This document shows, piece after piece, positions 22,671 to 40,996 of a stretch of DNA of 64,000 nucleotides. The first letter of the stretch is position 1. Each line of letters begins with the position of its first letter. The stretch lies in contig NZ_QJJK01000002.1 in NCBI RefSeq assembly GCF_003201475.1, forward strand, positions 124,001-188,000, written 5' to 3'. The stretch comes from Chelatococcus asaccharovorans (lineage in GTDB: Bacteria; Pseudomonadota; Alphaproteobacteria; Rhizobiales; Beijerinckiaceae). A program made the translations under genes and the position numbers. The notes below the pieces were generated by a model. It worked only from the letters and a program-made list of their open reading frames with translations. It was not told the DNA's origin and searched no databases.

Positions 22671-24223
22671 CGGCAGACCTGCCCCGCGGCCGCACGCATC
22701 CGCTCCTGTTTTCCGGCACGGACTGGGATTTCGACACCATCCGTCGCATTTATGAAGCGGTGGAGGAAGCCGCACGCAACGAGCTCGGGCTCGATACCTA
22801 TCCCAACCAGATCGAGGTCATCACCGCCGAGCAGATGCTGGATGCCTATTCGTCCACCGGCATGCCGCAGCTCTATAAGCATTGGTCCTTCGGCAAGCAG
22901 TTCGCCCATCACGAGCTTGTCTATCGCAAGGGCATGCGCGGGCTCGCCTATGAGCTCGTGATCAACTCCGATCCCTGCATCAGCTATGTGATGGAGGAGA
23001 ACTCGGCGATGATGCAGACGCTCGTCATCGCCCATGCGGCCTTTGGCCATAATCACTTCTTCAAGAACAACTATCTGTTCCGGCAATGGACCGACGCGGA
23101 GGGCATCCGCGACTATCTCGAATTCGCCAAGGGCTATGTTGCTTCCTGCGAGGAGCGCTATGGCCAGGCGGCCGTCGAGCAGCTCATCGATGCCGCCCAT
23201 TCGCTGATGAACCAGGGCGTGCATCGCTATCCCCGGCGGCAGCGGCTGGACCTCAAGGCGGAGGAGCAGCGGGAGGCGGAGCGCCACGCCTATCAGGAGC
23301 GCTTCTACAATGACCTCTGGCGCACCATACCGACCGGGGCACAGCAGGCCTCGCGCCAGAGCGAGGACAAGCGCCGTGCACTCCTCGAACTCCCGGAGGA
23401 GAATATCCTCTATTTCCTGGAGAAAACCGCGCCCAAGCTCGCCCCCTGGCAGCGCGAGATCCTGCGTATCGTCAGGCATGTCGCCCAGTATTTCTATCCG
23501 CAGTCACAGACCAAGGTGATGAACGAAGGCTGCGCGACCTATTGTCATTATCGCATCATGACGCGCCTGCATCGGCAAGGCTCGATCAACGACGGCGCTT
23601 TCCTCGAGTTTCTGCAGTCGCATACCAATGTGGTGGCGCAGCCGACCTTCGACACGCCCTATTACAACGGCATCAATCCCTATGCCCTTGGCTTTGCCAT
23701 GATGGAGGACATCGCGCGCATCTGTAACGACCCGCGCGACGAGGATCGGGAGTGGTTTCCCGATATCGCCGGCAAAGGTGATGCCGACAATGTCCTCAAG
23801 CATATCTGGGCGAACTACCGCGACGAGAGTTTCATCGCCCAGTTCCTCAGCCCGCGGCTGATCCGCGAATGGCGCATTTTCCACGTCCTCGACAACGCCA
23901 ACAAGAACGTGCTCGAGATCGCCGCGATCCATGACGAGCGGGGTTACCGCCGCATCCGCCGCGCGCTGGCGCGCCAATACGACATTGCCTGGCAGCAGGC
24001 GGACATCCAGGTGGTCGATGTGGATCTGGCGGGCGATCGCCACCTCATCCTGCAGCACGAGGTGGTCAACGGCATTCTGCTCGCGGAGGGCGACACCGCC
24101 CAGGTGCTACAGAACCTTGCCACCCTGTGGGGTTACAATGTAATCCTGCGTGAGGTCGATCCAGCGACTCGCAAGGTGCTGAAGGAGCATGTTGCGCGGG
24201 CAACGCCTGCCATCGCGGCGTAG
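22667..24223 (+). CDS. spoVR: SpoVR family protein (YcgB homologue)
   Basis: Cytosolic protein of 518 residues. Conserved SpoVR segments are visible: DTYPNQIEVITAEQMLDAYS, GMPQLYKHWSFGKQF, and the central NEGCATYCHYRIMTRLH and NPYALGFAMMEDIARIC. Required for spore cortex in Bacillus, of unclear function in non-sporulating Proteobacteria. Coupled to yeaH by ATGA overlap, and 31 bp before the cyclase/HATPase fusion gene. Confidence 0.95.
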   Translation: MTADLPRGRTHPLLFSGTDWDFDTIRRIYEAVEEAARNELGLDTYPNQIEVITAEQMLDAYSSTGMPQLYKHWSFGKQFAHHELVYRKGMRGLAYELVINSDPCISYVMEENSAMMQTLVIAHAAFGHNHFFKNNYLFRQWTDAEGIRDYLEFAKGYVASCEERYGQAAVEQLIDAAHSLMNQGVHRYPRRQRLDLKAEEQREAERHAYQERFYNDLWRTIPTGAQQASRQSEDKRRALLELPEENILYFLEKTAPKLAPWQREILRIVRHVAQYFYPQSQTKVMNEGCATYCHYRIMTRLHRQGSINDGAFLEFLQSHTNVVAQPTFDTPYYNGINPYALGFAMMEDIARICNDPRDEDREWFPDIAGKGDADNVLKHIWANYRDESFIAQFLSPRLIREWRIFHVLDNANKNVLEIAAIHDERGYRRIRRALARQYDIAWQQADIQVVDVDLAGDRHLILQHEVVNGILLAEGDTAQVLQNLATLWGYNVILREVDPATRKVLKEHVARATPAIAA

Positions 24224-24254: not shown

Positions 24255-25949
24255 ATGACTGCGCCAGCCACGATTGTCATCTGCGCCGGGCAGCCGGTCG
24301 ATACGGGCGGGCTACGCGGTGCCTTCCCGGAAGAGCTCGTGCCCGCCGTCCGGGATGCGCTGCGCGCGCACTTGGCCGCTTTTCCCGCCTTCATCGGCTA
24401 CTCATCGGCCACGGCCGGTGCGGACATCCTCTTCGGAGAAGAGGTCCTGGCTCTGGGTGGCCAGCTCAATCTCGTCCTGCCCTGCGAAATCAGTGATTTC
24501 ATCGCCCAGTATGTCGCGCCCGCCGGTGATGCCTGGGTGGCGCGCTTTCACGATCTGCGGACACGGGCATCGCGCGTCGAGATCAGCTGCGAGGAGCGCC
24601 TCCTCGGCGATGAAACGCTGGTGCGCTTCAACAATCAGATTCTGCAGGGGCTGGCGCGGCTCGAGGCCGACCGCCTCAAGGCCGAGACCCATCTCGTCAT
24701 CGTCTGTAACCTCGGAACGCCCCCCGAGCCCGGCAGCCCGACCGATTTCATGGTCCATTGGCCGGATGACGAGCGCCTGACAGTGATCGATCTGGACGCG
24801 CTCGCGAGTTCCACCGGCGTGGCGACGGGACCACTGGCGCGAGCCGGCATTCCCTTCGACGGCAACATGATCTTCGGGACCAGTCCGCGCGCCATTCGCG
24901 CCATCATGTTCGCCGACATCGCCACTTTCACGAAAACGTTCCAGGATGACCAGCTGCCGCTCCTCTGGGATTTCCTGGCGGAGGCCCAGCAGACGATCGA
25001 GAGCACGGCGAAGACGCCGATCCTCATCAACGCCTGGGGCGACGGGGTGCATGCCGCGGCCGAGACGGCGCACGATCTCGCTGACTACGCCGCCGCGCTG
25101 GCTGCGAGCGTGCTCGAAATCGATCCCGCGGCCTATGGCCTGTCGGCGCGGCCGCGCTTCCGCATCGCCCTGCATGCCGGTCCCGTCTTCGTCGGTCTTC
25201 ACCCCCTGACCGGCCATGGCATGATCTATGGTCACCATGTCAACCGGGCCGCACGCATCGAGCCGGTGGCGCTCCCCGGCCAGATGTATGCCTCGCGTTA
25301 CTTCGTGGCGCTGCTGCGGGCTGAAATGGACGCACGTGACTATGCGGCACGGGAGGCGGGGATTGCCTATGCGCCACGCTACAGGGCCGATTATATCGGT
25401 CAGATTGACCTGCCGAAGCATTTCGGCAGAGAAGCTGTCTATCGTCTCGTTGATCTCAACGCGGCTTTAGCTGCGACGGATGAGCCTCAACGCGCCATGA
25501 AAAGACTGCACGCGCCTTGCTTGAAGCTGTCGGTCAAGAACGATCTCAGCGAGATCAGCCGTCTGGCCGAGGAGATCGACGCCTTCTGCGCGAAGGTCGG
25601 CATCGGCGAGGACGCGGCCTATGCGGTGAACCTCGCGCTGGATGAGCTCCTCACCAATACGATCAGCTATGGATTCAAGGATCAGGCGGCGCACGCGATC
25701 GATGTGGCGCTGTCCCTGGAAGCCGACGTCCTTGTCATCACCATCCGGGATGACGGGGTCGCCTTCGATCCGTCCATTCCCCCGACCCCCGATGTTCATG
25801 CGGAGATCGAGGACCGTGATATCGGCGGGCTCGGCGTCCATTTCGTCCATACGGTGATGGATGAGATCGACTATCACCGACGCGACGGGCATAACGAACT
25901 CACGTTGAAAAAGAACGTCGCCGCGTCCGCGCGCGATACGGGACAGTAG
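24255..25949 (+). CDS. Fusion of Rossmann-like domain, class III nucleotide cyclase and RsbW-like HATPase
   Basis: Cytosolic signalling protein of 564 residues in three parts. Residues 1-190: an alpha/beta domain with FIGYSSATAGADILFGEE, resembling nucleotide-binding SLOG/TIR-like domains found before cyclases. Residues 215-410: a class III cyclase domain with both metal Asp (MFADIATFT and AWGDGVHAA) and the Asn/Arg pair in GHHVNRAARIEP, so it may be active. Residues 425-560: a GHKL anti-sigma-kinase-type ATPase with the N box (EDAAYAVNLALDELLTNTIS) and G1 box IRDDGVAFDP. Downstream, 10 bp away, is a STAS protein, the classic substrate of such kinases. I do not know a characterised protein of this architecture. 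Confidence 0.85.
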   Translation: MTAPATIVICAGQPVDTGGLRGAFPEELVPAVRDALRAHLAAFPAFIGYSSATAGADILFGEEVLALGGQLNLVLPCEISDFIAQYVAPAGDAWVARFHDLRTRASRVEISCEERLLGDETLVRFNNQILQGLARLEADRLKAETHLVIVCNLGTPPEPGSPTDFMVHWPDDERLTVIDLDALASSTGVATGPLARAGIPFDGNMIFGTSPRAIRAIMFADIATFTKTFQDDQLPLLWDFLAEAQQTIESTAKTPILINAWGDGVHAAAETAHDLADYAAALAASVLEIDPAAYGLSARPRFRIALHAGPVFVGLHPLTGHGMIYGHHVNRAARIEPVALPGQMYASRYFVALLRAEMDARDYAAREAGIAYAPRYRADYIGQIDLPKHFGREAVYRLVDLNAALAATDEPQRAMKRLHAPCLKLSVKNDLSEISRLAEEIDAFCAKVGIGEDAAYAVNLALDELLTNTISYGFKDQAAHAIDVALSLEADVLVITIRDDGVAFDPSIPPTPDVHAEIEDRDIGGLGVHFVHTVMDEIDYHRRDGHNELTLKKNVAASARDTGQ

Positions 25950-25959
25950 GAGAGTTCTG

Positions 25960-26298
25960 TTGAATATCGAACGGCTGGAAATCGACGGCGTCAGCGTGGC
26001 GGCCCCGGTGGGCCGCGTCGACAGCAACACGGCCCGCGAGCTCGAGGCGACGCTCGTGCCGCTTTTCGACGAGGCGAAGGCGATTGCGGTCGACTTCGAA
26101 CGCCTCACCTACATCTCGAGTGCCGGCTTGCGCGTGGTCCTGATCGCCGCCAAATTGTCAAAGGCCAAGAACGTCCCGCTCGCCCTCGCCGGTTTGTCGC
26201 AGCCCGTGCGGGAAGTGTTCCAGATTTCCGGCTTTGCGAAGCTGTTCGACATTCACGAGAGGCGCGCGGACGCCGTCGCGGCCTTGGCGAAAGCTTAG
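25960..26298 (+). CDS. STAS domain anti-anti-sigma factor-like protein (RsbV/SpoIIAA type)
   Basis: Single-domain protein of 112 residues. The phosphorylation loop TYISSAGLRVVL carries the conserved Ser of RsbV-like proteins, preceded by VDFERL. It starts with TTG 25960, supported by TAGGAGAG about 7 bases upstream that begins in the previous stop codon. Expected to be phosphorylated by the HATPase domain of the fusion protein encoded just upstream and dephosphorylated by a PP2C enzyme, for which the gene at 34805 is the obvious local candidate (inference). It ends convergent with the alanine racemase operon. Confidence 0.9.
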   Translation: MNIERLEIDGVSVAAPVGRVDSNTARELEATLVPLFDEAKAIAVDFERLTYISSAGLRVVLIAAKLSKAKNVPLALAGLSQPVREVFQISGFAKLFDIHERRADAVAALAKA

Positions 26299-26357
26299 AG
26301 CAGGCTGATTTTTACACGGAACCACCGCGTCGTCCGGGGCGGCCCCAGGGGAAGCGC

Positions 26358-27524
26358 CTATTCATTATAGACCTTGCGCGTGCCGGCACCGATCGCCGTC
26401 AGAAGTGTGTTGGGGGCACAGTCGCATGCCTGGGCCAAGGGCTCGAGCGGCAAGCCGGCATCGAGAAAAACGACCTCGGGATGTCCTTCGAGATCCCGCG
26501 GATCCATATCGGTGACGTCGACCATCGTCAGATTCATGGCAATCCCACCGACCGTCTCGACCAGCATATCCCCGATACGCGCGTGAAGGCATTGCCCGAA
26601 ACGCTGCGGCAGGCCATTGGCATAGCCGATCGCGACCGTCGCGATCCGCGACGCACGCGTGAGTTCCGTCCCGGCGTAGCCAAGCCGGCGCCCGGCCGCA
26701 TAGTCGGCAATGCGGAGGATCCGCCCGGACAGGCGATAGCAGGGCACGAGGCCGTCCTGCCAGACGCGTGACGTCTGCACGCCATAAAGCGCACTGCCGA
26801 CCCGCGCGATATCGAAATGCCATGGCGATGGCCAATAGACCCCGGAGGACGAAGCAAGGCTGACCGGCGCCTCGGGAAGTCCCGCCAACCACTGGGTCAG
26901 CCGGTGGTGCTGCTCGTCATTGCGCGCATCGGCGGGCTGGTCGAAGGCGGCGAGATGCGAAACCCAGGCCTTGACGTCGAGGTGGCGCCACAAGGGATCG
27001 AGCATCGCCCTGTCGCTGAGTTCCTCGCCGGTGAGGCCGAGGCGCCCAAGCCCGGTGTCGATCTGGATCGCGACCGGAACAGCGATACCCGCGGCGGCGG
27101 CAAAGGCCGCGACCGCGCGCATCTCGGCAAGGCTCACGAGGACGGGGATGACCTCAGCGCGCCGGAACGCGATAGGCTCGCGCCCGGCGAGGCCAAGAAG
27201 GGTATACACGGTTGCAGCCGGCGCCAGGGCGCGCACACGCAGGGCCTCGTCCAGATCATCGACCCAGAAGGTATCGCAGCCTGCGGCCAACAGGCTTGCG
27301 ACCACAGGCTCGAGGCCGAGGCCATAGGCGTCCGACTTGACGACGGCCGTGACGGAGCGCCCCGTAAAACGCCGCCGCATCTCCGCAAAATTGGCGCGCA
27401 CGGCCGCAAGATCAACGTCCAGGCGCGCCTCTGCAATTCCCTCGACCTTCGGAGACGGGCGAAACGCATCCGGGATCACCAGCTCATGCGGAAGTACAGC
27501 CACCTGATAACTCCGCGGCGTCAT
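26358..27524 (-). CDS. alr: Alanine racemase family PLP enzyme
   Basis: PLP-dependent racemase of 388 residues. The barrel begins ARLDVDLAAVRANFAEMRRR, with the PLP Lys in AVVKSDAYGLGLEP. The second catalytic residue Tyr is in LGYAGTELTR, and the phosphate-binding segments (VSHLAAFD, IARVGSALYG) are present. An N-terminal extension of about 30 residues precedes the fold. It is the last gene of an operon with a GNAT enzyme, an orphan periplasmic binding protein and sensor/MFS proteins, which is not the usual cell-wall context, so a role in D-amino acid signalling or use rather than peptidoglycan is possible (inference). Confidence 0.9.
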   Translation of the reverse strand: MTPRSYQVAVLPHELVIPDAFRPSPKVEGIAEARLDVDLAAVRANFAEMRRRFTGRSVTAVVKSDAYGLGLEPVVASLLAAGCDTFWVDDLDEALRVRALAPAATVYTLLGLAGREPIAFRRAEVIPVLVSLAEMRAVAAFAAAAGIAVPVAIQIDTGLGRLGLTGEELSDRAMLDPLWRHLDVKAWVSHLAAFDQPADARNDEQHHRLTQWLAGLPEAPVSLASSSGVYWPSPWHFDIARVGSALYGVQTSRVWQDGLVPCYRLSGRILRIADYAAGRRLGYAGTELTRASRIATVAIGYANGLPQRFGQCLHARIGDMLVETVGGIAMNLTMVDVTDMDPRDLEGHPEVVFLDAGLPLEPLAQACDCAPNTLLTAIGAGTRKVYNE

Positions 27525-28261
27525 GCCAACCTCGCAAAGAGGATCTCATAACCGCCGTCATCGCGCCTGCGCCAGGCGACGCCCGCGCGCCCCTCCTCCA
27601 TCAGCCTCTGGGTTGCCCTGACGTCGGTGGCAGCAACCCAGACGCCCGCACCATCGGCCGGCGGCGACGGCCCCCTCTCGACGGCCCGGAAGACCAGATA
27701 CCGCCAATGGCCCCCGTATTTCCGCCTGAGCGCACGAATCTGGAAGCCCGCATCGAGGAGATTGGTCCAGCTGCTCGCATTGCCAGGGGCCGCCGTGGCA
27801 TAGACCTGCGCCACGCCAGCCTGCCGCGCGGCCTGCAGCCGCTGGTCGATGAGGGCTCCATGGAGCCGCCTGCCCCAATCGGCGGGACGGACCGACGCGC
27901 CTGCAAATTTCGCGAGCTTGACCGACGGCGCGAGGCCGATGACGGGTCGGGCATCCTCGGACCGCGGCAGCGCGAGCTGCAACACCCCATAAGCCGCGAG
28001 CCCCTTGTCGTCGAAGGCGCCGACGATGCGTCCCCCACCGGCAAGGATTCCGGCAAAGAATTCACGCGTCTCCGGTTTCACCAGGGACGGGTCGCTCATG
28101 GCCGCGATCGCCTGACCGTGCAGCGCATAGACGTCATCGAGATCCGCGACGACAAGCGGCCGCCATGACAGCGGCTTTGCCGCAGGAACCGCCTCCGGCA
28201 GGTCGCCGGGCCGGCGTGGATCCGTGACGTGACCGACGATCGCCCCCATCGTTTTCATCAT
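27521..28261 (-). CDS. GNAT-like acetyltransferase family protein
   Basis: Probable N-acyltransferase of 246 residues. The GNAT pattern is moderate: WRPLVVADLDDVYALHGQAI at the start of the domain, the central strand and turn around RRLHGALIDQRLQAARQAGV, then VYATAAPGNASSWTNLLDAG and FQIRALRRKYGGHWRYLVFR. The acetyl-CoA loop is not a textbook Q/RxxGxG/A. ATGA overlaps link it to both the binding-protein gene upstream and the alanine racemase downstream. An amino acid or D-amino acid substrate would fit the neighbour (inference). Confidence 0.75.
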   Translation of the reverse strand: MMKTMGAIVGHVTDPRRPGDLPEAVPAAKPLSWRPLVVADLDDVYALHGQAIAAMSDPSLVKPETREFFAGILAGGGRIVGAFDDKGLAAYGVLQLALPRSEDARPVIGLAPSVKLAKFAGASVRPADWGRRLHGALIDQRLQAARQAGVAQVYATAAPGNASSWTNLLDAGFQIRALRRKYGGHWRYLVFRAVERGPSPPADGAGVWVAATDVRATQRLMEEGRAGVAWRRRDDGGYEILFARLA

Positions 28262-29268
28262 CCCGTCAGCACTTCCGCATAGTTCAGCATCTCGATCGGC
28301 GGATAGAGATCGAGCTCTTTGGCGACCGGCATATTGATGATCAACGAGAAACGTTTGAGACTTTCAATGGGTATCTGCGCAGGGGGTATGCCCTGGCGCA
28401 GGATCTTCACGGCTTTCGACGCCGCAAGCTGGCCGACGGAATAATAGCGGGTCACGAGGGCCACCAGCGCCCCGCCCTCGCGGATGGCAAGTTCGGCGGC
28501 GCCGAATGTCGGAAGCTTCTCTTTCAGCGCCGCCGGCACGACGCGCTTGTATTGCGTACCGAGGAACGTGTCCGGCAGGAGATAGAGCCAATTGGCCCCG
28601 GCCCCTTTGATCTCCGCAATCAATTCCTCGATCCCGTCGGCGATCGGCCGCCCGGCCGAATCGACCCGGAACTGGCGCGCGACGAGTTCAAATTTCATCG
28701 TCGGCTGGAGAGCCTTCACCTCCTCGACGATCGCCACCGAATTCTGCTCGGTCTGGGTATAGAGGATGCCGAGCTTCTCGATCGGACGGTAGGAACTCAT
28801 GGCCCGAAGCTGGATCGCCGTCGGCACCACATGCACCGCACCGGTCACATTGCGTCCGGGGTCGGCGAGGCTCGGCACGATACCGGCATTCACCGGCGCG
28901 GCGACCAGGGTGAAGACGATCGGCGTTTCGGTGATGAACGCGGCCTTGTCGGCCGCGTCAAAGCGGCCGGCGACGCCCAGGGTGACCGGCGTTCCCCATG
29001 TATAGACGAGATCCGGCTTGAGCTGGCGGATCTCCGCGACGAAATCGCTGAGCTTGGCCTTGCCTCGGTCGGCATCGCGCTCGATGAACGTCGCCTCGAC
29101 CTTGTTGGCGGCCAGATAGTCGTCGAAGCCGTCCTCGACCTCGGTGCGGCCGCGATAGGTGATGCGGTAGATCTTGAAAGGCCCGTTGCGCGCCTGCGCA
29201 AAGGCGCCACCGGCCGCGAGCGCGGCGGTGCCACCGGCTGCAAGCTGCAGAAACGAACGACGACGCAT
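28258..29268 (-). CDS. Periplasmic ABC-type substrate-binding protein (ABC_sub_bind family), orphan
   Basis: Binding protein of 336 residues. It starts with a twin-arginine-like signal (MRRRSFLQLAAGGTAALAAG, cleavage after AFAQ), and the mature part has IYRITYRGRTEVEDGFDDYL, LVYTWGTPVTLGVAG and the repeated lobes of the COG2984 family (KLGILYTQTEQNSVAIVEEV, PTFGAAELAIREGGALVALV). AAGGGG precedes ATG 29268. No permease or ATPase gene is in the vicinity. It is placed between a sensor/MFS fusion and a GNAT enzyme, so it may feed ligand to the membrane sensors rather than to an ABC importer (inference). Confidence 0.87.
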   Translation of the reverse strand: MRRRSFLQLAAGGTAALAAGGAFAQARNGPFKIYRITYRGRTEVEDGFDDYLAANKVEATFIERDADRGKAKLSDFVAEIRQLKPDLVYTWGTPVTLGVAGRFDAADKAAFITETPIVFTLVAAPVNAGIVPSLADPGRNVTGAVHVVPTAIQLRAMSSYRPIEKLGILYTQTEQNSVAIVEEVKALQPTMKFELVARQFRVDSAGRPIADGIEELIAEIKGAGANWLYLLPDTFLGTQYKRVVPAALKEKLPTFGAAELAIREGGALVALVTRYYSVGQLAASKAVKILRQGIPPAQIPIESLKRFSLIINMPVAKELDLYPPIEMLNYAEVLTG

Positions 29269-29293
29269 CACAAACCCCTTCTGCCCCCGCCTC

Positions 29294-31312
29294 TTATTCT
29301 GCCTGTACGGCCGTTGCATGACGCGACGACCGCCAGTAGGCAAAAACGGCCACGAACACAGCCGAAGCGAAGGCCATGCCAAGTCCGATAACGATCACGG
29401 CCGAGGTAAATCCGTACCGCCCCAACAGAAAGCCCGCACAGGCCGGACCCAGCGCGTTGCCCGTGCGTTCGACGAGGCGGAAGATACCATAAAGTGAGCT
29501 GTCACTGATATCGCCTGCCAACGCGCGGCCAAATTCGCCGACCAGCGCCGATTGCGGTGCGATGCTGATGGCCTGGCCGATACCGAACAGGCCGAGCATC
29601 AAGGCAAGAACCAAGGGCTCCTCGGCGCTGATGAGGACGCTGAGCCCCGAAAGCCCGGCGACGATTCCGCCGAGCGCCACGAAAGGCGCCCTCTGGTTGA
29701 ACCGGCTTGCCAGCGCGGCGAAGACCGGCACCAGGATGACCATCGCGATGGGATAGACCATCAGGAGCCTCCCGGTCGCGGCCTGCCCCGCCCCCAGCGC
29801 CTGCATATGCAGGGGGACGAGGAAGAAGCAATAGGCGACCAGGATGATCTTGGCGGGCAGCGCACAGAGGAAGAACAGGCAGGCGAGCGGCGGCGAGGCG
29901 AGGATCGGCCCGAAGTCGCGCCAGCGTATGGTTGGCCCCTTCGGCACTGCGGTGTGTTCCCCCCGGCGCGCGCGCGGCATGGCGATGAGCGCGAGGACGA
30001 GACTGGCACCGGCCACCAGGCCGGCGATGACGAAAGTCGCGCGGATGCCGAGACGATCGGCCAGAATCCCGCCGATCGGCGGGCCGCACAGGCCGGCGAC
30101 CAGGATGGCGCCGATGAACATGGCCATGCCGCTGGCCCGTTGGCGCAGATCCGTATTGTCGATGACATAGCCCTGCGCGCTGACGAACACGGCGGCGAAG
30201 CCAAGCCCCGAAATCATGCGGGCGAGCGTGAGCATGATGAGGTCCGTCGCCATCGCCGAACCGATGTAGCCGGCCAGCCCAAGGGCCGCGCCGACGACGA
30301 GGCTCGTGCGCCGCCCGAGCCGATCCGTCACACCGCCGAGAATGGGCTGGGAGAGCGCGACGACGGCGAGAAAGGCGACCATCGGCAGGCTGGTGACCAT
30401 ATCCGGCGAAAGTCCGGGGATCGGCGCCGCGAGATCCTTGATGTAGATGGGAAGAAAGGGTCGCGTGAGCTCTTCCGCGAGCATGAAGATGAAGAGCGGC
30501 GCGCGCACCGCGATAACCGAAACCGGTGCTTCGCTGGAGCCTTCGCCGAGCTTGAAATCCCTGCGCAACCCATCGACGACGGCTTGCCGCAGAGCATCGC
30601 CCTGGGCCGCGAGCCGGGCGACGAGTGCCAAATAGCGGCGATTGAGCTCGACGAGCCGGCGATCGATCCGCGCGGCAAGGCGACCGAACTCGCTGCCGCC
30701 GTCAACCGCCGGATGCAGGCTGAGATCATCGCGGGCGATCGTGTCGAGCCGCGTCTCGACACCCTCGATGGCGCCATAGAGCCCCGCGCCGAAGGCGATG
30801 TGCATGAGTTCAAGCGCCACCAGCGCCGTGACGATCATGATGATTGCGAGATCGATCCAAAGCTCCGACACGACCTTGCGGGCGAAGGCGGGATCGAGCC
30901 CCAGCGTCAGCACGGCCGGGCTGGCGGGGCCACTGCGCACAGCGACGGATAAGGTCGCTTGGGACCGATCGAGACCAAGCGCCAGCGGCGGCATCCCGCC
31001 GGGAAGCGCGCCCGCCGCATTGAGGACGGCGCCATCGGGCGCGCGCAGCATCGCAAAAGCGATGTCGGGATTGCCCGCGACCGTGCGATCGAGATAGGGG
31101 CCGACGCCCTGCAGCCTGTCGAGGGGAATGCCGAGATCAAGCGCCCTGCCGATCAGGCTGGCGACCGAATCGGCAACCGTCGCAGCCTTCGCCTCGAGTT
31201 CCGGGAGCAGCACGGTCTCGGCGCGGCCGGCCGTGCGCCAGCTGAAGGCGGCAAGCGCCATCACCAGCACGAGGACCAGGATGGCCGACAACTGTATCCG
31301 GACGCTCTTCAC
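29294..31312 (-). CDS. MFS transporter with N-terminal extracytoplasmic sensor-like module
   Basis: Membrane protein of 672 residues combining a receptor-like front with a transporter. Residues 1-175: a first membrane helix (LSAILVLVLVMALAAF), an extracytoplasmic domain with ALDLGIPLDRLQGVGPYLDR, and a second helix (DLAIIMIVTALVALELM). Residues 180-260: a HAMP-like helical linker (RLAARIDRRLVELNRRYLAL). Residues 270-660: a full MFS fold with motif A GGVTDRLGRRTSL. Start is GTG 31312, overlapping the stop of the upstream sensor gene (GTGA). The same extracytoplasmic motif recurs in three neighbours. Ordinary MFS transporters are about 400 residues, so the front 260 residues are an added module. 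Confidence 0.88.
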   Translation of the reverse strand: MKSVRIQLSAILVLVLVMALAAFSWRTAGRAETVLLPELEAKAATVADSVASLIGRALDLGIPLDRLQGVGPYLDRTVAGNPDIAFAMLRAPDGAVLNAAGALPGGMPPLALGLDRSQATLSVAVRSGPASPAVLTLGLDPAFARKVVSELWIDLAIIMIVTALVALELMHIAFGAGLYGAIEGVETRLDTIARDDLSLHPAVDGGSEFGRLAARIDRRLVELNRRYLALVARLAAQGDALRQAVVDGLRRDFKLGEGSSEAPVSVIAVRAPLFIFMLAEELTRPFLPIYIKDLAAPIPGLSPDMVTSLPMVAFLAVVALSQPILGGVTDRLGRRTSLVVGAALGLAGYIGSAMATDLIMLTLARMISGLGFAAVFVSAQGYVIDNTDLRQRASGMAMFIGAILVAGLCGPPIGGILADRLGIRATFVIAGLVAGASLVLALIAMPRARRGEHTAVPKGPTIRWRDFGPILASPPLACLFFLCALPAKIILVAYCFFLVPLHMQALGAGQAATGRLLMVYPIAMVILVPVFAALASRFNQRAPFVALGGIVAGLSGLSVLISAEEPLVLALMLGLFGIGQAISIAPQSALVGEFGRALAGDISDSSLYGIFRLVERTGNALGPACAGFLLGRYGFTSAVIVIGLGMAFASAVFVAVFAYWRSSRHATAVQAE

Positions 31313-31968
31313 CGGAGTTGATCCATGGCGGCGCCGTCCTGATGGAGCGTGTCGAGAGCAGCGGTGGCCCGCGCAAGGGGACTGGCTTCGCCACGCGCCT
31401 CGACGGCAGCACGGGCACGGGCCAGAAGATGCCGCAGCACCAGAAAACAGCCGAAGCTGCCGGCCAGGACGGCGGCGAAGCCGATGGGCAGAGCGTCCTG
31501 CGCAGCCGCCGCGCGGATCGTCGCGACCCCACGCGTGACCGCGGCATCGTCGAACCGGATGGCGACATTGCCGATGGGGGCGCCGAAGTCATTGACCAAT
31601 GGCTGGTCGTAACGAAACGCCTGCCGGTCGTCCGCCCGTCTGTCCGGGTGCCCGGCGCGCGCCGGGTCGCTGCTGAAGAGCACCGTGCCGTCGACGCCGC
31701 TGACATCGATGGACAGCGTGAGCGGGTCGGCGGCCGCCTGGCGGGCGAGCACCGCCGGCAAGGTTATCTGCTCGGAGAGCCTGAGGCCAAGGGCAAGCGC
31801 GTTGTTGATGTCGTCGGCGATGTCCTGCGCCACCATGGCCATGCGCGAGCGAATGAGGTCGCGATAGGCGGTACTGACGCCCGACGCCGTCATGAAAGCG
31901 GCGAGCGCCATCGCCAGTCCGATGATGATCGCAAATAACGGCAAGGTCCGAAGTGACAGCCTGATCAT
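31309..31968 (-). CDS. Two-helix membrane protein with extracytoplasmic sensor-like domain
   Basis: Protein of 219 residues without a recognised enzymatic domain. A first helix (LFAIIIGLAMALAAFMTA), about 110 extracytoplasmic residues with NNALALGLRLSEQITLPAVL and SIDVSGVDGTVLFSSD, a second helix (GFAAVLAGSFGCFLVL) and a short cytosolic tail. It resembles the receptor half of the MFS fusion encoded directly downstream, with which it overlaps by four bases. ATG 31968 follows a GGGGGG run about 6 bases upstream. Probably a sensor subunit acting together with the fusion protein (inference). Confidence 0.75.
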   Translation of the reverse strand: MIRLSLRTLPLFAIIIGLAMALAAFMTASGVSTAYRDLIRSRMAMVAQDIADDINNALALGLRLSEQITLPAVLARQAAADPLTLSIDVSGVDGTVLFSSDPARAGHPDRRADDRQAFRYDQPLVNDFGAPIGNVAIRFDDAAVTRGVATIRAAAAQDALPIGFAAVLAGSFGCFLVLRHLLARARAAVEARGEASPLARATAALDTLHQDGAAMDQLR

Positions 31969-32168
31969 CTCGTGCCCCCCGCACCTGCTGCTCAACCACA
32001 CCTAACCGGCGTCGACGCGTCGGCGCCGAACTTCCCATTTCGAAAGACATAGCATAACCGCAAGAAATCAACGGCAAATATAGCGCATGCGGTGACAGTG
32101 GCGAACAGTTCCGATACCGTTCGATTCACCTGCATCCTGCCTGATCCGCCAATTGTGTCACTGAGCGC
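31969..32168. promoter_or_regulatory. Divergent promoter region between two sensor operons
   Basis: 200 bases between the minus-strand sensor/MFS operon and the plus-strand sensor-PP2C operon. It is the only place for both promoters, so both arms are probably expressed in a coordinated way. A GC-rich palindromic stretch ACCGGCGTCGACGCGTCGG (about 32003-32021) stands out. No clear sigma-factor match was found. Confidence 0.4.
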
Positions 32169-32957
32169 ATGTCTCCCGCTGTCCGAACAATTTTGGCCCT
32201 CCTCGGCCTGACCGGCGCTGGAATTCTTCTGGCCGGCGCCCTTGTATTCGGCGGACTGGACCGTCTGCGGCTCCGGGTGGTCGAGGCGAATATCGACTTC
32301 GTGCTGACGCAGCTGCGTGATTCCATCGAGGCCAATGTCAGCCTGGGCATTCCGCTGCAGGATCTGCGCGTGGTGCAGGATCTCCTCGAGCGATCGCGAA
32401 TCGGCAACCCGAGCCTCCTCGCCGTGGAGGTTTTCTCGCCGGCCGGCATATCCCTCTTCAATACGGATCGCGGCAGTATCGGCGAGGACATCACATCGAC
32501 ATGGCGCGATGGCGTCCGTCACGCCGGCAACGGCGACCGCTGGCGTGTCGAGGAATTTGGCAATCTCATCGTCGGCCAGGCCATCCGCAATGATTTCGGT
32601 GAACCTGTCGGCTATGTCGCCGTGACGGTCGCCGGCCCGACGGGACAATCGCCGATCGTGTCCGTCATCGTCGCCAGCGCCTGGCGTTTTGCCGTCGTCC
32701 TGCCGGCAGGATTGTTCGGCGTGGGTCTGGTCGTCTGGTTCATGTTCCGATGGCGTTCCCGCGAGATCATGGACGTCACCGCGCGTCTTTCGGCGAGCGG
32801 CTCGCCCCCCTTGCCGGCGCCCCCTCCCGACGCGGACCTTGTCCGCCTCGCCGACCAGGTCGGCGAAGCGGTCGACGCCGCGGTGAAGCAGCTTGATCAG
32901 ACAACGACAGCCGTGCTGAAACTCGACGACGATGGCGTGCGCGATGCGGCGGCTTGA
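32169..32957 (+). CDS. Two-helix membrane protein with the shared sensor-like motif
   Basis: Protein of 262 residues. A first helix (TILALLGLTGAGILLAGALV), an extracytoplasmic domain containing NVSLGIPLQDLRVVQDLLER and VEVFSPAGISLFNTD, a second helix (FAVVLPAGLFGVGLVVWFMF) and a 65-residue cytosolic tail with a proline-rich PPLPAPPP and a helix. The LGIPL...V..L pattern matches the MFS fusions on both sides. First gene of a plus-strand operon that ends with the PP2C phosphatase; its end overlaps the next gene by 26 bases. Confidence 0.75.
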   Translation: MSPAVRTILALLGLTGAGILLAGALVFGGLDRLRLRVVEANIDFVLTQLRDSIEANVSLGIPLQDLRVVQDLLERSRIGNPSLLAVEVFSPAGISLFNTDRGSIGEDITSTWRDGVRHAGNGDRWRVEEFGNLIVGQAIRNDFGEPVGYVAVTVAGPTGQSPIVSVIVASAWRFAVVLPAGLFGVGLVVWFMFRWRSREIMDVTARLSASGSPPLPAPPPDADLVRLADQVGEAVDAAVKQLDQTTTAVLKLDDDGVRDAAA

Positions 32958-34791
32958 GGCGCGATCCCTGCGCGACCGGCTGGCCGCGATGGTGATTGCG
33001 ATCGCCGTTGCCATGGCCATCGCCGCCGGGGGCTGGCGCGTGCTCGATGCGGCCTGGGCGGAAAGCGCCCCGGGGCTCGACGGCGCCACGCGGCTCGGCG
33101 CCGAGGCGGTCGGGCGTGCGCTGAGCGGCCAGATCGAGCATGCGCTCGCCCTCGGGATACCGCTCGACAAGCTGGTCCGTGTCGAAGATTATCTGAAATC
33201 CGTGGTCGCCTCGGCGCCCCAGGTCGACGCCGTAGCCCTTCTCGACGAGGCCGGCCGGCCGATCTTCACGACACGCGAAGGCGTCGCGGGCCTCACCTTC
33301 CCCGTCAATGGCGGGGGGCAGCGCGCGACACTGGTTCTCTCGACAGAATCACCCTTTCTCAATGCTGCGACGGTTCGTCTGGAAATCCTCCTGGGCGCCA
33401 CCGCCCTACTCGGGGGCATGATCGCGTTCCTCATCGCGAGCCTGTTTCTCGAGATGCATCTCGCTCCCGCGCGGGCAAGGCTCGCTCTGGCACTCGCCCG
33501 GGCTGCCCGGGGCGATTTCGCCGTCGCGATTCCGACGACCGGGCGCGGGCGGACAACGGCCGCCTTCCGTGCCCTGGCGCGGCGGATCGAGCCCGTCCAT
33601 GTGGCCGCACGCCATATCGCCGATGGCATTGCGACCGTGCGGGCGATCGACTTTGACGGCAGCCTGAGCAAACGGCTCGATCCATTGCTCGCAACGGTCG
33701 CCGCCACGCGCGGCCTCGCCGATATCGACCCCGGCGAAACACCGCGCTCGACGGTGCCCAGTCCCGCCGCCATCGCGACGCGCGTGCTCCTTCTGGTCAG
33801 CCTTTATGCCGGTGCCTGGCCGTTGCTCGCGAATTTCGCGATCGACCGCGGCACGGACATGATCCCGGCGCCCTGGCGTCCGGTTACGCCCCTCTTTGCC
33901 GAGGCTGTCGCCGTTGTCCTCGGCATGTTGATCTGCCGTTCCATCGCACCGTCAGCATCCCGCGTCGCGGCCGCCCTGGGGACCGCGCTCACCGCCCTCG
34001 CCTTCACGGCCGTCTTCTGGTGCCGCTCCTACGATCTTTTCGTGGCCTTGCGGGCCGCGGCCGGCCTGGGTCTTGGCGTCGCCCTCACGCCCCTGCTGCG
34101 CGACCCGCGCCTCACCGCGCATCCGCGCGGGCTCGTGGCGCTCATAGGCCTCACCGGCCTCGTGATCGGGCCACTGTTCGGTGGACTGGTGGCGGAGGCC
34201 ATCGGCCGACGGGGCACCTTTGCCCTCCTGGGCATCGCATTGCTGGCGATCGCCCCGCGGGCTGCCGCAATGCCTGCCGCTGCAGCGGGAGACACGGCCC
34301 TGCGGCTCAACTTCCCCGCGCAGGCCGGGCGTCTGCTCCAGCTTCTCTCGCTCATGACGCTCGCGGCGCTCGTGCTCGTCATCGTTCCGTCAGGACCGGG
34401 CTTCGACAACTATGCCGTCGGGGCGGGCCTGATCGTTGCAGCCGGCTTGGGCCTGGTCGTGGCGCCGGCCACCCTGCCGCCGGTCTTCGCGGGTCTCCTG
34501 GTCGGGGTGGCGGGCGCGCTGTGGCTTTCCGCCGCCGGCGCGGTGCTGCCCGAGGCATGGCGATGGCCCGTCAGCAGCATGCTGATCGGCATCGGCGTGG
34601 GCAGCCTTCTGAAATGGCAAGCCGCGGGCCTGTTCCGACATGGCCGGTCGGCAATCGCGGGGCTTGCGCTCGGCGCCGTGGTGGCCCCTGTCGCAACCAT
34701 CCCGGGCTTCGCCGCGATGAGTATCATGCTGCCCCTCGGCGTCCTCCTCGCGGGAGTTTCGATGCTTGCCCGCGGCCGGCGTAACCCATGA
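32932..34791 (+). CDS. Second sensor-like/MFS-like fusion membrane protein
   Basis: Membrane protein of 619 residues. The front matches the other sensors: a first helix (AAMVIAIAVAMAIAAGGW), an extracytoplasmic HALALGIPLDKLVRVEDYLK with ALLDEAGRPIFTT, a second helix (LLGGMIAFLIASLFL) and a helical linker. From about residue 280 follow some 10-12 hydrophobic segments with an MFS-like layout, including FGGLVAEAIGRRGTF, a motif A-like loop. The transporter part is more degenerate than in the fusion at 29294-31312, so it may act as a receptor rather than a carrier (inference). ATG 32944 is an alternative start; neither has a good ribosome binding site. Confidence 0.78.
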   Translation: MACAMRRLEARSLRDRLAAMVIAIAVAMAIAAGGWRVLDAAWAESAPGLDGATRLGAEAVGRALSGQIEHALALGIPLDKLVRVEDYLKSVVASAPQVDAVALLDEAGRPIFTTREGVAGLTFPVNGGGQRATLVLSTESPFLNAATVRLEILLGATALLGGMIAFLIASLFLEMHLAPARARLALALARAARGDFAVAIPTTGRGRTTAAFRALARRIEPVHVAARHIADGIATVRAIDFDGSLSKRLDPLLATVAATRGLADIDPGETPRSTVPSPAAIATRVLLLVSLYAGAWPLLANFAIDRGTDMIPAPWRPVTPLFAEAVAVVLGMLICRSIAPSASRVAAALGTALTALAFTAVFWCRSYDLFVALRAAAGLGLGVALTPLLRDPRLTAHPRGLVALIGLTGLVIGPLFGGLVAEAIGRRGTFALLGIALLAIAPRAAAMPAAAAGDTALRLNFPAQAGRLLQLLSLMTLAALVLVIVPSGPGFDNYAVGAGLIVAAGLGLVVAPATLPPVFAGLLVGVAGALWLSAAGAVLPEAWRWPVSSMLIGIGVGSLLKWQAAGLFRHGRSAIAGLALGAVVAPVATIPGFAAMSIMLPLGVLLAGVSMLARGRRNP

Positions 34792-34804
34792 TGAGGTGGC
34801 GCTG

Positions 34805-37015
34805 ATGTTCCTCAGAACCCGGGTCGCGCTCCTCGTCTCGATCGTGCTTGTCATCGCGCTTGGTGCCGTGGTGTTGCTCGGCCTGCAACGCGAAAACCTT
34901 GCAGCCCGGCCCTATACGGCGATCGCCATCACCGGACAGGATGCCTTATGGCGGGAGATCCTTGCCTCGCAGACGGACGAACTCACCGCGACGGTGAACG
35001 GGATCGCCGGCGACGAGCGTCTTCAGGCCGCGTTGATTGCCGGCGACCTGCCGCGCATCCGCACGCTGCTCTTCAACTTCGCAAGTTCTGGCGCCAATGC
35101 ACATGTTGGAGCCAACTCAGGTCCTGGCGCAAACTCCGTTCTTGGCGCAAACTCCGTTCTTGGCCTCGACGCCAACGCGCTGGAGGAGTTGCAGATCATC
35201 GACCGTCAGGGTCGGGTGGTCGCAACGAGTTCCCTCGTGCCGGAGCCGCCACGCCTGCTCGACATCAGCACGGTCGAGGCCGTGCTGGATGGGGCGCGCC
35301 CTGCGGGCATCCGCCAGGTGGGATCGGATCAGTTCCGGGTGCTCGCCACGTCGGTCCTCTCCGTGCCATCCGGCGATCGTTGGGTCATCATCGCGGCCGC
35401 TCCGACCACACAGCCGCTGACGCATTTTTCGACGGCCATGGGCGGCGAGGCCTTCATGCTCTCGACGCGCGGCCGGCTGATCGACGGCACAGATCTCGAC
35501 CTCTGGCGCAGCCTGGCCCTGGAGCTGCCGCAGCGCACGGCGACCGTCACCCAGGCCGAGCTCGGTGACCACCTCTACGCCGTCACAGCGGTCCCGATGA
35601 CGGATCTCTCGGCCGGCTTCGCGGGGCTGCTCGTCGTCGTGCAGGACGCGACGGCAAGCCTGAGCGCCGTGCGCATGCTGACGCGCCTCGGCCTGGTGAT
35701 GGCCGGCTGCGTGCTGCTGCTGACGCTGGCGGGCTTCTATCTCTACCTGCGGCGGAGCTTCGCGCCGCTCGAGCAGGCCGTTGACGTGCTCGACGCGCTC
35801 GGACGCGGCGACACCTCGGTCCGGCTGAGCGGAGGCGGCAACGATGAGATCGGCCGCATCGCGCGGGCGGTTGTGGAACTGCGCCGCAGCCTTGTCACGC
35901 TCGACCAGACACGCCGGCAGCGTGAGCTCCAGCGCCGCAGGCAGGAACGCTTCGTGCGCCGGCAGATGGAGGAACTCGCCGGCACATTGGAACCGGGCGC
36001 GCGCGAGGAGGTTCTCGGCGATCTCGGCCGTATCGTCGCGGCCACCTCCACCCAGGGCGAGAAGCCCGGCGAACCAGCCGATCCGATCGCGCAACTCATC
36101 CGCCACGACGATCAGCTCGGGCCGCTTGCGGCGGTGCTGCAGCAGATGTCCGGCCGCGTCGTCGAGCAGCATCGGCGGTTGTCCGAGCTTGTGGCCCGCC
36201 TGCGCGAGGCCCTGGTGCGCGAGACCCAGCTCGCGACGCTGCAGCAGGAGCTCGCGATCGCCCATGACCTGCAGCAATCCGTCATTCCCGACGATTTTCC
36301 CGACCGGCCCAGTTTCTCGATTTCCGGCTTCATGGAATCGGCCCGCGAGGTCGGTGGTGACTTCTACGACTTCTTCGAGCGTGCGGACGGCAAGCTCGTC
36401 TTCGTCATTGCCGACGTGTCCGGCAAAGGTATCCCCGCCGCCTTCTTCATGGCGATTTCGCGCACGCTTCTGAAGGCGATCGCACTGTTCGAGAATGATC
36501 CGAGCGTGTGTATCCGACAGCTCAACGAACTCCTGGCCGCCGACAATGACCAGATGATGTTCGTCACCCTGTTCTTCGGGATCTTCGATTCCACGACCGG
36601 CCATCTCGACTATGTGAATGCCGGCCATGGCCCACCGGTGCGGCTTGGCGCGAATGGCACAATCTCCATGCTGCCGATCACCGACGATATGGCGGTTGCC
36701 ATCATGGAGTCCGTGCCGTTCACAACGCGCTCGATCGACCTCGCGCCGGGCGACAACCTCGTTCTCTATACGGACGGTGTGACCGAGGCCTTCAATGCCG
36801 CCGGCGAGCAATATGGCGAAAGCCGGCTGATGGAAATCCTGAGCCAGGTGTCGCTCGACGACGCGCCGGGCGCGCTCTCGTCAGCGGTCGCAGACGATGT
36901 CGCGCGATTCGAATCCGGATGCGACCGTTCCGACGACATCACGCTCGTGGTGTTGCGCTACAAGGGCCTATCCGCCGCGGTGGATCGCCATCAGCGAACG
37001 GCCCAGGCCCTGTAG
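34805..37015 (+). CDS. SpoIIE-type PP2C phosphatase with extracytoplasmic sensor and HAMP domain
   Basis: Membrane-bound Ser/Thr phosphatase of 736 residues. A first helix (ALLVSIVLVIALGAVVLL), about 270 extracytoplasmic residues including an 18-bp tandem repeat region, a second helix (LVMAGCVLLLTLAGFYLYL), a HAMP domain (RRSFAPLEQAVDVLDALGRG) and coiled coil, then a PP2C domain with AREVGGDFYDFF, FVIADVSGKGIPAAFFMA, LVLYTDGVTEAFN and DRSDDITLVVL; the metal-binding Asp residues are present. ATG 34805 has AGGTGG 6 bases upstream; an upstream TTG 34766 is less likely. Expected target is a phosphorylated STAS protein, such as the one at 25960 (inference). The 3' end overlaps the convergent DUF1612-type gene by 25 bases. 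Confidence 0.92.
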   Translation: MFLRTRVALLVSIVLVIALGAVVLLGLQRENLAARPYTAIAITGQDALWREILASQTDELTATVNGIAGDERLQAALIAGDLPRIRTLLFNFASSGANAHVGANSGPGANSVLGANSVLGLDANALEELQIIDRQGRVVATSSLVPEPPRLLDISTVEAVLDGARPAGIRQVGSDQFRVLATSVLSVPSGDRWVIIAAAPTTQPLTHFSTAMGGEAFMLSTRGRLIDGTDLDLWRSLALELPQRTATVTQAELGDHLYAVTAVPMTDLSAGFAGLLVVVQDATASLSAVRMLTRLGLVMAGCVLLLTLAGFYLYLRRSFAPLEQAVDVLDALGRGDTSVRLSGGGNDEIGRIARAVVELRRSLVTLDQTRRQRELQRRRQERFVRRQMEELAGTLEPGAREEVLGDLGRIVAATSTQGEKPGEPADPIAQLIRHDDQLGPLAAVLQQMSGRVVEQHRRLSELVARLREALVRETQLATLQQELAIAHDLQQSVIPDDFPDRPSFSISGFMESAREVGGDFYDFFERADGKLVFVIADVSGKGIPAAFFMAISRTLLKAIALFENDPSVCIRQLNELLAADNDQMMFVTLFFGIFDSTTGHLDYVNAGHGPPVRLGANGTISMLPITDDMAVAIMESVPFTTRSIDLAPGDNLVLYTDGVTEAFNAAGEQYGESRLMEILSQVSLDDAPGALSSAVADDVARFESGCDRSDDITLVVLRYKGLSAAVDRHQRTAQAL
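35090..35161. repeat. Four 18-bp tandem repeats in the phosphatase sensor domain
   Basis: Units at 35090-35107, 35108-35125, 35126-35143 and 35144-35161. The last two are identical (GGCGCAAACTCCGTTCTT); the first two are diverged. They encode GANAHV, GANSGP, GANSVL and GANSVL in frame, so copy number can change without breaking the reading frame. Confidence 0.85.
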
Positions 37016-38109
37016 CGGCCGCGGCCGGTCACTTCCTTTAAGGTCGGGCTCAATGCGCCGATCAGATCAAGGGCGCCGCGCGCCGTGATCCTGAGCTCCT
37101 TCGCAACGAGCTGCGGCGTCACCAGCGGCTTGGCCAGCACGAGCTCAACAAGACCGGGCAGGCGCGAATGCGACCGCCGGTTCGTCAGAAACCGTTCGAG
37201 CTGTGTGCGCGCCAGCATCAGCCTGTCGTGCTCCTGCAGGCCCGCCTCGGCCGCCGCTTTGATGGCATTCAGCATGGCGACCTTCGGCGGCGCCATCGCA
37301 TAGCCGTGCAACGTGGACCCGCCCTTGGCGCGACGCGACTCGCGCAGGCCGAGACTGACGCAGGCGAGATGATGCGCGGTCTTGCCGCCCGCCCGCAGAA
37401 CGGCGGCGACCAACAGGGGCCCGAGCCAGGGCATTGTCTGCAGGGGGGCGAGATCGACCCAGGCCTCCCATGCGTCGAGCGCCGCAAGAACGGGGGGCCG
37501 TTCCAGATCGATACGGTCCCGCCAATGCGTAAGCAATTCGTCGTCATCGCGCTCGGAATCGTAGAGGCCGAGATCGGCCAGGCCGGACACGCGTCCCGGC
37601 GCCGGCAGGCGCGCATTGACGATGGTCCGGTTGGAGCGCGCCAGAAGCGCATCGATATCGGCGAACGCACGCTCCGCCTCACCGTCGACATCCGCGCCGA
37701 CGAGGTCCTTGACCCGTTGCGAGGACAGCGAGGCCTCGTCATCGAGCCACGACGGATTGCGGCCGCTCAAGGCACCAAGGCCCGCGGCGCTCAAGGCCCA
37801 GCCGGGCGGATGGTTCGCGATGCTGCGATGGGCTCTCAGCACCGCCGAAGCGCGTGTCAGCTCGTGGGTGGGCGTGCGAATGTCCATCGCCGCATCGTTC
37901 AGCACGAGATCTTCGAGGTGAACGAGCTCACCGGCAATCCAGCGTGCCGCACATGCCTCATTGAAGTGGCTGCGGCTCATCCATGCGTCGCGCACAGGGC
38001 TCGCCCTGAGACGCTCGTCGAGGCGCGCGAGCGCATCCTCCGCGAGGAGAAGCGGACCCATCAAGCTCTCTGACGAAGCCGCAGCACTCGGTTTGCGAAT
38101 CATGCTCAT
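36991..38109 (-). CDS. RHE_PE00001/DUF1612 family protein with C-terminal HTH
   Basis: Protein of 372 residues of a family I recognise from rhizobial plasmids and genomes. Visible are GPLLLAEDALARLDERLRAS near the N-terminus, the central SWLDDEASLSSQRVKDLVGA, and a C-terminal segment LVLAKPLVTPQLVAKELRIT followed by ARGALDLIGALSPTLKEVTG that looks like a helix-turn-helix. It resembles Fic-like or plasmid-associated regulators in general plan, but no function is established. Convergent with and overlapping the PP2C gene by 25 bases at the 3' end. Confidence 0.8.
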   Translation of the reverse strand: MSMIRKPSAAASSESLMGPLLLAEDALARLDERLRASPVRDAWMSRSHFNEACAARWIAGELVHLEDLVLNDAAMDIRTPTHELTRASAVLRAHRSIANHPPGWALSAAGLGALSGRNPSWLDDEASLSSQRVKDLVGADVDGEAERAFADIDALLARSNRTIVNARLPAPGRVSGLADLGLYDSERDDDELLTHWRDRIDLERPPVLAALDAWEAWVDLAPLQTMPWLGPLLVAAVLRAGGKTAHHLACVSLGLRESRRAKGGSTLHGYAMAPPKVAMLNAIKAAAEAGLQEHDRLMLARTQLERFLTNRRSHSRLPGLVELVLAKPLVTPQLVAKELRITARGALDLIGALSPTLKEVTGRGRYRAWAVR

Positions 38110-39039: not shown

Positions 39040-39895
39040 CGCTTGACCTCCAGCCTGTTGAGAATGAGCTTGCCGAACACGAAGGCCATGCCCATCAGGA
39101 TGGTCGCGTTGGCGGCAATCATGATGACCGACAGGCTTGAAGCGAAAGGCAGGTCATTGTTGAGGAGCGCTTCACGATAGATCACGAGACCGATCATCTG
39201 GGTATCGTTCGCCCCGACCATCAGCGGCACGGCAAAGGCCGAGAAATTCAGGGTGAAGACGATGACGAGGCCCGCATAGAGGCCGGGCAGGGTCAGGGGG
39301 AACGTGATCCGCCAGAAGGCTGTCCAGCGATTGGCCCCGACATTGCGTGCCGCTTCCACGAAGGAGGGATTGAGGCGCTCGATGGAATCGAGCAGGGACA
39401 ATACGATATAGGGCATCCCGATATAGACGAGCAGGATGATGACGCCCTTCAGGTCCCACATGTAGCGCACGGGCTCATCATAGACCTGCAGCGCGATCAT
39501 CAGCGAGTTCAGGAGGCCACCGCCACGAAAGATGACGATCCAGCCGTAGACGAGGGTGACGAGCCCGATCAGCAGCGGCGACAGGACCATCGTCACCAGA
39601 ATGCTCCGCTGCAACCCGCGGGTCTGCGCGATGTAGAGCGCCACGGGATAACCGAGAAGCACGGAGATCAGCGTCGTGACGATGGCGACGCGGATGGAAA
39701 ACCAGAGCGTATTGATGAGATACCAGCTTGAGCCGAGAAAGCGCGTGTAGTTGTCGAAGGTAAAGGCCGACACCATATAGGCGCCGTCGACGGTCTCGTT
39801 GAAGCTGGTGCGGACGACCCACAGCAGCGGCAGCACGACGAAGATCGTGAGCGCGATAACGGCCGGGGCGAGAAGTGTAGCAGCGCCGCGCGACT

Positions 39896-39899
<4 letters not shown>
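39036..39899 (-). CDS. Polyamine-type ABC transporter permease (PotB-like)
   Basis: First inner-membrane permease, 287 residues. Helices include LLAPAVIALTIFVVLPLLWV and IRVAIVTTLISVLLGYPVAL; the coupling loop is SFVEAARNVGANRWTAFWRI. ATG 39899 overlaps the ATPase stop by four bases and gives the normal family length; an in-frame ATG at 39959 would add 20 residues inside the ATPase gene. Together with the binding protein and ATPase it makes a complete spermidine/putrescine-family (PotABCD-type) importer, whose substrate in this setting may be another amine or an amino acid. Confidence 0.92.

Positions 39900-40996
<1,097 letters not shown>

Follow-up and report, generated by a model that had tools for sequence, protein, structure and literature searches.

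A 64,000-nucleotide stretch of the Chelatococcus asaccharovorans genome (positions 124,001 to 188,000 of contig NZ_QJJK01000002.1, referred to here as the window and numbered from its first letter) contains a complete set of partner-switch genes within a larger group of membrane and metabolic genes. From 24255 to 37015 there is a single conserved island, in which the three switch genes occur with genes for sensors, fusions of a sensor to a major facilitator superfamily (MFS) transporter, a binding protein, a racemase, and a GNAT-like protein. A PP2C phosphatase, a STAS protein, and an HATPase_c_2 kinase are encoded together at the locus, making the RsbU/V/W-type gene set complete. An earlier note, made from the sequence alone, had placed an HATPase at 24255-25949, a STAS protein at 25960-26298, and a SpoIIE phosphatase at 34805-37015, and Pfam finds all of them there. 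The racemase (26358-27524) and the GNAT-like gene (27521-28261) are members of the island that it did not name. The features of the island are as follows.

24255-25949, plus strand: fusion protein with a SLOG-like domain (about 24255-24824), a class III cyclase domain (24900-25325), and an RsbW-type HATPase domain (25539-25913); from Pfam, genome coordinates, and fold matches
25960-26298, plus strand: stand-alone STAS protein with an ISSAGL motif; Pfam E 4.5e-15 and motif
26358-27524, minus strand: alanine-racemase-like pyridoxal phosphate enzyme; 159 bits, slightly short of the 168 required by the NCBIfam alr model
27521-28261, minus strand: GNAT-like protein; weak Pfam match (18 bits, cut-off 25), conserved in the island
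28258-29268, minus strand: orphan ABC-type substrate-binding protein (PF04392) with a twin-arginine-like signal at the chosen start; Pfam E 7e-30
29294-31312, minus strand: sensor-MFS fusion 1; MFS_1 E 1e-37, 13 hydrophobic segments, alignment
31309-31968, minus strand: small membrane sensor 1, starting at MIRLSL; two hydrophobic segments, conserved
31969-32168, no strand: intergenic region from which the sensor 1 and sensor 2 genes diverge, 200 bp by gene spacing
32169-32957, plus strand: small membrane sensor 2 with a single-Cache fold; structure model with WalK, DcuS, and CitA fold matches
32932-34791, plus strand: sensor-MFS fusion 2 with a divergent MFS part; 13 hydrophobic segments, conserved in place
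34805-37015, plus strand: membrane receptor phosphatase with an extracytoplasmic input region, a HAMP domain (about 35747-35896), and a SpoIIE PP2C domain (36386-36961); Pfam

The genes are closely packed in three blocks. At the left end the cyclase-HATPase fusion gene is followed on the plus strand by the STAS gene, with a spacing of 10 bp. The racemase, GNAT-like, binding protein, sensor-MFS 1, and sensor 1 genes form a block on the minus strand, with overlaps of 4 bp or gaps of 25 bp, and the right plus-strand block of sensor 2, sensor-MFS 2, and HAMP-SpoIIE has a 26-bp overlap or a 13-bp gap. These spacings depend on the start codons of the binding protein and sensor 1, which were our choice. 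The divergent region has one promoter-like match, on the minus strand, and this is not evidence of function.

The island is conserved in gene content and order, and its distribution is patchy. A search of 297 genomes of the order with the SpoIIE protein gave matches in 28, including the window genome, and in none of the 11 other listed genomes of the same family, which indicates the patchiness. Neighborhoods were taken from 20 of the 28 (none came from G010, G099, G130, G158, G224, G225, or G278; stretches are denoted by L numbers). Fifteen of the 20 (L022-L036) keep the gene order of the island. Genes not detected in them are the racemase in L028-L036, STAS in L026, and both STAS and HATPase in L028 and L032. 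L037 and L038 are reduced forms. L039-L041 have SpoIIE with STAS and/or HATPase and are without sensor-MFS, so they were set aside as unrelated loci. Other families of the order have these genes in an identical arrangement, which suggests more than chance.

A wider sample gives a similar result. When named genomes were scanned with an alignment of sensor-MFS, the best 80 of 95 relatives were kept, and these are in records labelled Rhizobiales, Rhodospirillales, and Rhodobacterales (Alphaproteobacteria), Betaproteobacteria, and Gammaproteobacteria, many of them metagenome bins. A plasmid search with sensor-MFS gave 11 records, all from Azospirillum. Among 101 stretches, 98 match the sensor-MFS profile, and removal of 8 duplicates and of 20 with less than 6.5 kb on a side left 70 usable non-redundant loci. 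The binding protein is found in 68 of these, the GNAT-like protein in 60, SpoIIE in 50, a class III cyclase in 23, the racemase in 19, and prkA in one. The earlier note had suggested a search for conserved synteny, and synteny is indeed seen, with SpoIIE in 50 of the 70 relatives and SpoIIE, HATPase, and STAS together in 37. Its description of the locus as one interleaved system also holds, since order and interleaving are kept across families.

The motifs of the switch proteins are intact. The HATPase_c_2 domain matches Pfam with an E-value of 2e-25, and the ELLTNT motif was present in the motif check. The SpoIIE domain (E 6e-49) keeps the GGDFYD, DVSGKG, and SDDIT motifs. Membership of the HATPase in the RsbW and SpoIIAB equivalog families was rejected, as the scores are far under the cut-offs (45.8 versus 145 bits and 31 versus 135 bits). 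The Guanylate_cyc domain has an E-value of 1e-7 and 32.1 bits against a cut-off of 21.9. Three residues of the cyclase, Asp221, Asp263, and Arg334, do not vary in 11 sequences, and Asn330 is almost as constant. We take the two aspartates to be the metal-binding residues of class III cyclases, Asn330 and Arg334 to be transition-state residues, and a Lys and an Asp at positions 259 and 328 to be the residues that select a purine (adenine). The structure model of the fusion, which because of its low predicted template modelling score (pTM) is informative for individual domains only, matches SpoIIAB/RsbW in the HATPase and Rv1900c in the cyclase. Foldseek matches of the N-terminal domain to DprA, ShosA, Moco carrier protein, and TM1055, presumably all members of the SLOG superfamily, are weak (E 1e-3 to 8e-3).

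By exclusion, the switch proteins have no other obvious partners in the genome. The 7.25-Mb genome has a single SpoIIE domain and one HATPase_c_2 domain over the curated cut-off, with ten weaker matches under it. There are five STAS matches, and the one in the window is in a 129-aa frame, the others being in frames of 390-625 aa. Of 15 tested genomes with a clustered cyclase, 10 have just one SpoIIE domain.

No sigma factor was detected near the switch, in agreement with the earlier note, which had named the fused cyclase domain or PrkA as the possible output. Sigma-70 region 2 has no match on the window contig and ten matches elsewhere in the genome, and none was detected in the 101 stretches by a search whose leave-one-out control gave 10/10. 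A linked sigma factor was therefore rejected as the target. PrkA was also rejected, since prkA is found in one of the 101 stretches, that of the window itself; the cyclase half of the proposal survives as the likely output.

Class III cyclases are repeatedly associated with the island. The cyclase and HATPase are a single open reading frame (ORF) in the window, L022-L025, L046, and L048. In Mesorhizobium sp. LHD-90 (L042) the same two are separate ORFs 2 bp apart, and in Albimonas (L047 and L049) they are neighboring separate ORFs. The HATPase frame looks broken in Jiella (L044), and in the M. ephedrae genome, to which L043 belongs, cyclase and HATPase are neighbors on contig C16, beyond the examined stretch. 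A second clade, comprising 11 loci of a sensor-MFS tree, has a stand-alone HATPase and a separate cyclase gene adjoining SpoIIE. The product is PAS plus Guanylate_cyc by Pfam in the three loci examined (E 3e-13 to 2e-18), and the cyclase profile matches the rest. In all 11 genomes of this clade, roughly 220-780 bp separate the SpoIIE match from the cyclase match. The PAS-cyclases of the clade keep the purine-selecting Lys and have Asn (His in L029) at the Asp position. A cyclase is inside the cluster in 15 of 15 genomes tested, compared with a background of 150 matches in about 80 Mb, or about 0.04 expected per 20 kb. These 15 genomes are related, so the result reflects conservation and not 15 independent events. 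A word search of the stretches for GGDEF found five ORFs in five stretches.

Cyclases also occur in the cluster as receptors. In L087 a dCache-HAMP-cyclase is found at the SpoIIE position, beside sensor-MFS 2, and its input region is homologous to that of the window SpoIIE (E 1.3e-57, with the window SpoIIE sequence alone as the profile). The match and the position suggest that the output domain was swapped on the same receptor. In L074, a metagenome bin, a dCache-HAMP-cyclase is encoded just upstream of a sensor, a sensor-MFS, and a binding protein. The sensor-MFS tree was made by a quick method without bootstraps from 59 of the 70 loci, with rows of 400 or fewer matched residues omitted and long branches flagged; on it cyclase presence takes five changes, the two dCache-cyclases are on separate branches, and L074 is a long branch. 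From the receptor swap, L074, and the five changes, we read class III cyclases as having probably been recruited repeatedly to one sensing core.

The island appears to be a transmembrane signaling system, and the most likely output of its switch is a class III cyclase, and thus a cyclic nucleotide, rather than a sigma factor. We give this reading, which is based on sequence comparison, a probability of about 0.6. The SpoIIE receptor phosphatase, probably with the two small Cache-type sensors, the sensor-MFS pair, and the binding protein, would read an extracytoplasmic solute and would dephosphorylate the STAS protein at the serine of ISSAGL. The kinase for this serine would be the RsbW-type HATPase, which would also bind or release STAS. 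Since a class III cyclase domain is part of the same protein as the HATPase, the activity of that domain could be set by the binding state of the HATPase, and the product would be a cyclic nucleotide in place of a freed sigma factor. Cyclase and HATPase domains are both normally homodimers. We infer the phosphorylation and dephosphorylation steps, the direct control of the cyclase and its direction, and the ligand.

Several observations weigh against a cyclase output. The association rests on approximately four lineages, not 23 loci, and no match of the L074 cyclase input to SpoIIE was detected with the window SpoIIE sequence as the profile. A nearby cyclase was undetected in 29 of the 50 SpoIIE loci. 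Loci of Xanthobacter, Azorhizobium, and Aquabacter keep SpoIIE, HATPase, and STAS with no cyclase detected nearby, and in L063 (14134-16848) and its kin from these genera a gene of the Na/Pi-cotransporter family (PF02690) separates HATPase from a STAS gene; the cotransporter is a possible alternative target of the switch. The HATPase matches of L028 and L032 are on other contigs. The core is found without SpoIIE, HATPase, STAS, and cyclase in 18 of the 70 loci, 11 of them from Azospirillum. In the fused type of cyclase, Asn259 and His328 are at the usual purine-selecting positions, and the enzyme may be inactive or use another substrate. The model of the fusion is weak overall, with a mean predicted local distance difference test score (pLDDT) of 76 and a pTM of 0.42. 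L132, which is outside the 101 stretches, has an annotated rpoH at a distance of about 7 kb from a sensor-poor, related MFS gene. Overall, the cores without a switch and the SpoIIE loci without a cyclase suggest that the core has several outputs, among them the partner switch, and that the cyclase is not universal.

Some of these points would fit a switch whose target is an unlinked regulator, either a sigma factor or some other, with the fused cyclase serving as a degenerate regulatory or nucleotide-binding domain. The altered purine-selecting residues, the 29 of 50 SpoIIE loci with no nearby cyclase, the ten sigma-70 region 2 matches elsewhere in the genome, and rpoH in L132 are all consistent with this. 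We consider it unlikely, however, since the metal-binding Asp residues and Arg334 are kept in 11 of 11 sequences, the second-clade PAS-cyclases retain Lys, no sigma factor was detected in the 101 stretches, and SpoIIE is exchanged for a cyclase in L087. Less likely still is an action on transport, in which a transporter, one of the sensor-MFS proteins or another, is gated by unphosphorylated STAS or by the HATPase, with the cyclase as an accessory branch. This leaves the fusion and the exchange in L087 unexplained, although the 18 loci that have the core without switch genes or cyclase, and the cotransporter gene in L063, fit it. That a transport and metabolism operon and a partner switch are adjacent and do not work together is very improbable: the patchy distribution (28 of 297 genomes, none of 11 in the family) would suit it, but interleaving and order are kept across families and all three switch genes accompany the core in 37 of 70 relatives.

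The sensing part of the island combines transporter-like proteins with extracytoplasmic sensors. The earlier note had seen an extracytoplasmic motif shared by the four membrane proteins, and these do have a common extracytoplasmic region, with an LG-x-x-L motif; small-sensor profiles match all four with E-values of 6e-14 or lower, which are partly circular since the profiles were iterated over mixed hits. The model of sensor 2 has a single-Cache domain between two transmembrane helices (mean pLDDT 85) and matches the sensor domains of WalK, DcuS, and CitA. Its C-terminal tail is short and conserved around Asp253, which is invariant in 19 sequences, and this might be a docking motif. Sensor-MFS 2 has no Pfam match and just 16 bits to an MFS model. 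The binding protein is an orphan, as had been proposed, with no ABC permease or ATPase among the scanned island genes. It is a distant relative of TrpX, and membership of a TrpX tryptophan ABC system was rejected because the equivalog score of 94.4 bits is far below the cut-off of 390. For the GNAT-like protein, a search of solved structures gave one match at E 0.12, which is not meaningful. Genes beside the core in some relatives encode PALP enzymes, class III aminotransferases, an ATP-grasp enzyme, or ABC transporters. These neighbors and the distant TrpX relationship prompt the guess, a doubtful one, that the ligand is an amino acid or a derivative.

A broader proposal is more tentative than a cyclase output at this locus. 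Together, the sensor-MFS proteins, Cache sensors, and binding protein may be a sensing core of an undescribed kind, linked to transport, whose outputs can be exchanged. One output would be a partner switch with a class III cyclase, another a receptor that is itself a cyclase, and a third, perhaps, a response regulator. In the first of these the class III cyclase would be gated directly by a canonical RsbW/STAS/SpoIIE switch, and its nucleotide product might be an unusual one.

Known partner switches resemble the island in part. In the available part of PMC7647112, the SiaABC switch of Pseudomonas aeruginosa is proposed by its authors to set the activity of the diguanylate cyclase SiaD, and the Moorella switch kinase MtT is cited as binding a diguanylate cyclase. 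SiaABCD is similar to the window in that a PP2C phosphatase, switch kinase, and switch protein are encoded with a cyclase, but SiaD is a diguanylate cyclase and the window cyclase is class III (PMC7647112, same part). The window phosphatase scores 46.7 bits against the SiaA equivalog cut-off of 700, far too low for membership, which was rejected. To our knowledge SiaABCD has no sensor-MFS, binding protein, or racemase. HsbA-HsbD of P. aeruginosa reportedly also links a switch protein to a cyclase, again a diguanylate cyclase. The RsbU/RsbV/RsbW and SpoIIE/SpoIIAA/SpoIIAB systems have domain families and motifs in common with the window proteins; in contrast to the window locus, which has no linked sigma factor and equivalog scores below the cut-offs, they free a sigma factor. 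RbaV/RbaW/RbaY of Rhodobacter capsulatus is an alphaproteobacterial STAS/HATPase/PP2C switch, and no cognate sigma factor was found for RbaW; as far as the available part of PMC3999984 describes it, the system differs in the receiver domain of its PP2C, in having no cyclase, and in having no island of the window kind. In a review (PMC8256260), the word "cyclase" is absent from the main text.

The island is real, conserved, and apparently undescribed. The open-access literature, which leaves out most subscription papers, yielded neither a partner switch with a class III cyclase as its target nor an island with sensor-MFS genes, and within that coverage the earlier note's statement that no system of this composition has been described is borne out. 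What is new relative to known switches is that the output is most likely a class III cyclase and that the sensors are linked to transport. Partner switches are best known as controllers of sigma factors, and some in proteobacteria are without a known target (for example RbaVW, from the same part of PMC3999984). Here the fusion of the kinase to a cyclase makes the target assayable in one tube. If the proposal is true, transporter-like proteins with their own extracytoplasmic sensors would connect solute transport to second-messenger signaling in a new way, across records labelled Alpha-, Beta-, and Gammaproteobacteria.

The island is flanked by the following genes.

19396-24223: PrkA-DUF444-SpoVR set adjoining the fusion gene on its upstream side, not shared with the stretches of the relatives; Pfam
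36991-38109: DUF1612/HTH_13 gene, convergent with the SpoIIE gene and overlapping its 3' end
38230-39959: ABC permease pair, outside the island

In the second-clade relatives the PAS-cyclase gene occupies the place of the DUF1612/HTH_13 gene. Other variations are seen among the relatives. Two STAS genes are present in each of L063, L065, L067, and L080. One ORF is matched by both the SpoIIE and HATPase profiles in L097 (13127-15703) and in L103. In L097 it is followed by genes for an alpha/beta hydrolase and a histidine phosphatase; the annotation of Azospirillum sp. B510 (L132) shows such a pair next to an MFS gene and a chemoreceptor. Azospirillum L083 has a SpoIIE-less core beside a response regulator with a MarR-like helix-turn-helix domain and an ATP-grasp enzyme (7742-8839 and 13843-15075). 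PALP enzymes and ABC transporter genes are near the core in L111 (605-4099 and 15197-19780), L112, and L113. L111 in addition encodes a small protein resembling a nonribosomal peptide synthetase, with AMP-binding, methyltransferase, PP-binding, and thioesterase domains, and a natural-product context is possible for these three neighborhoods.

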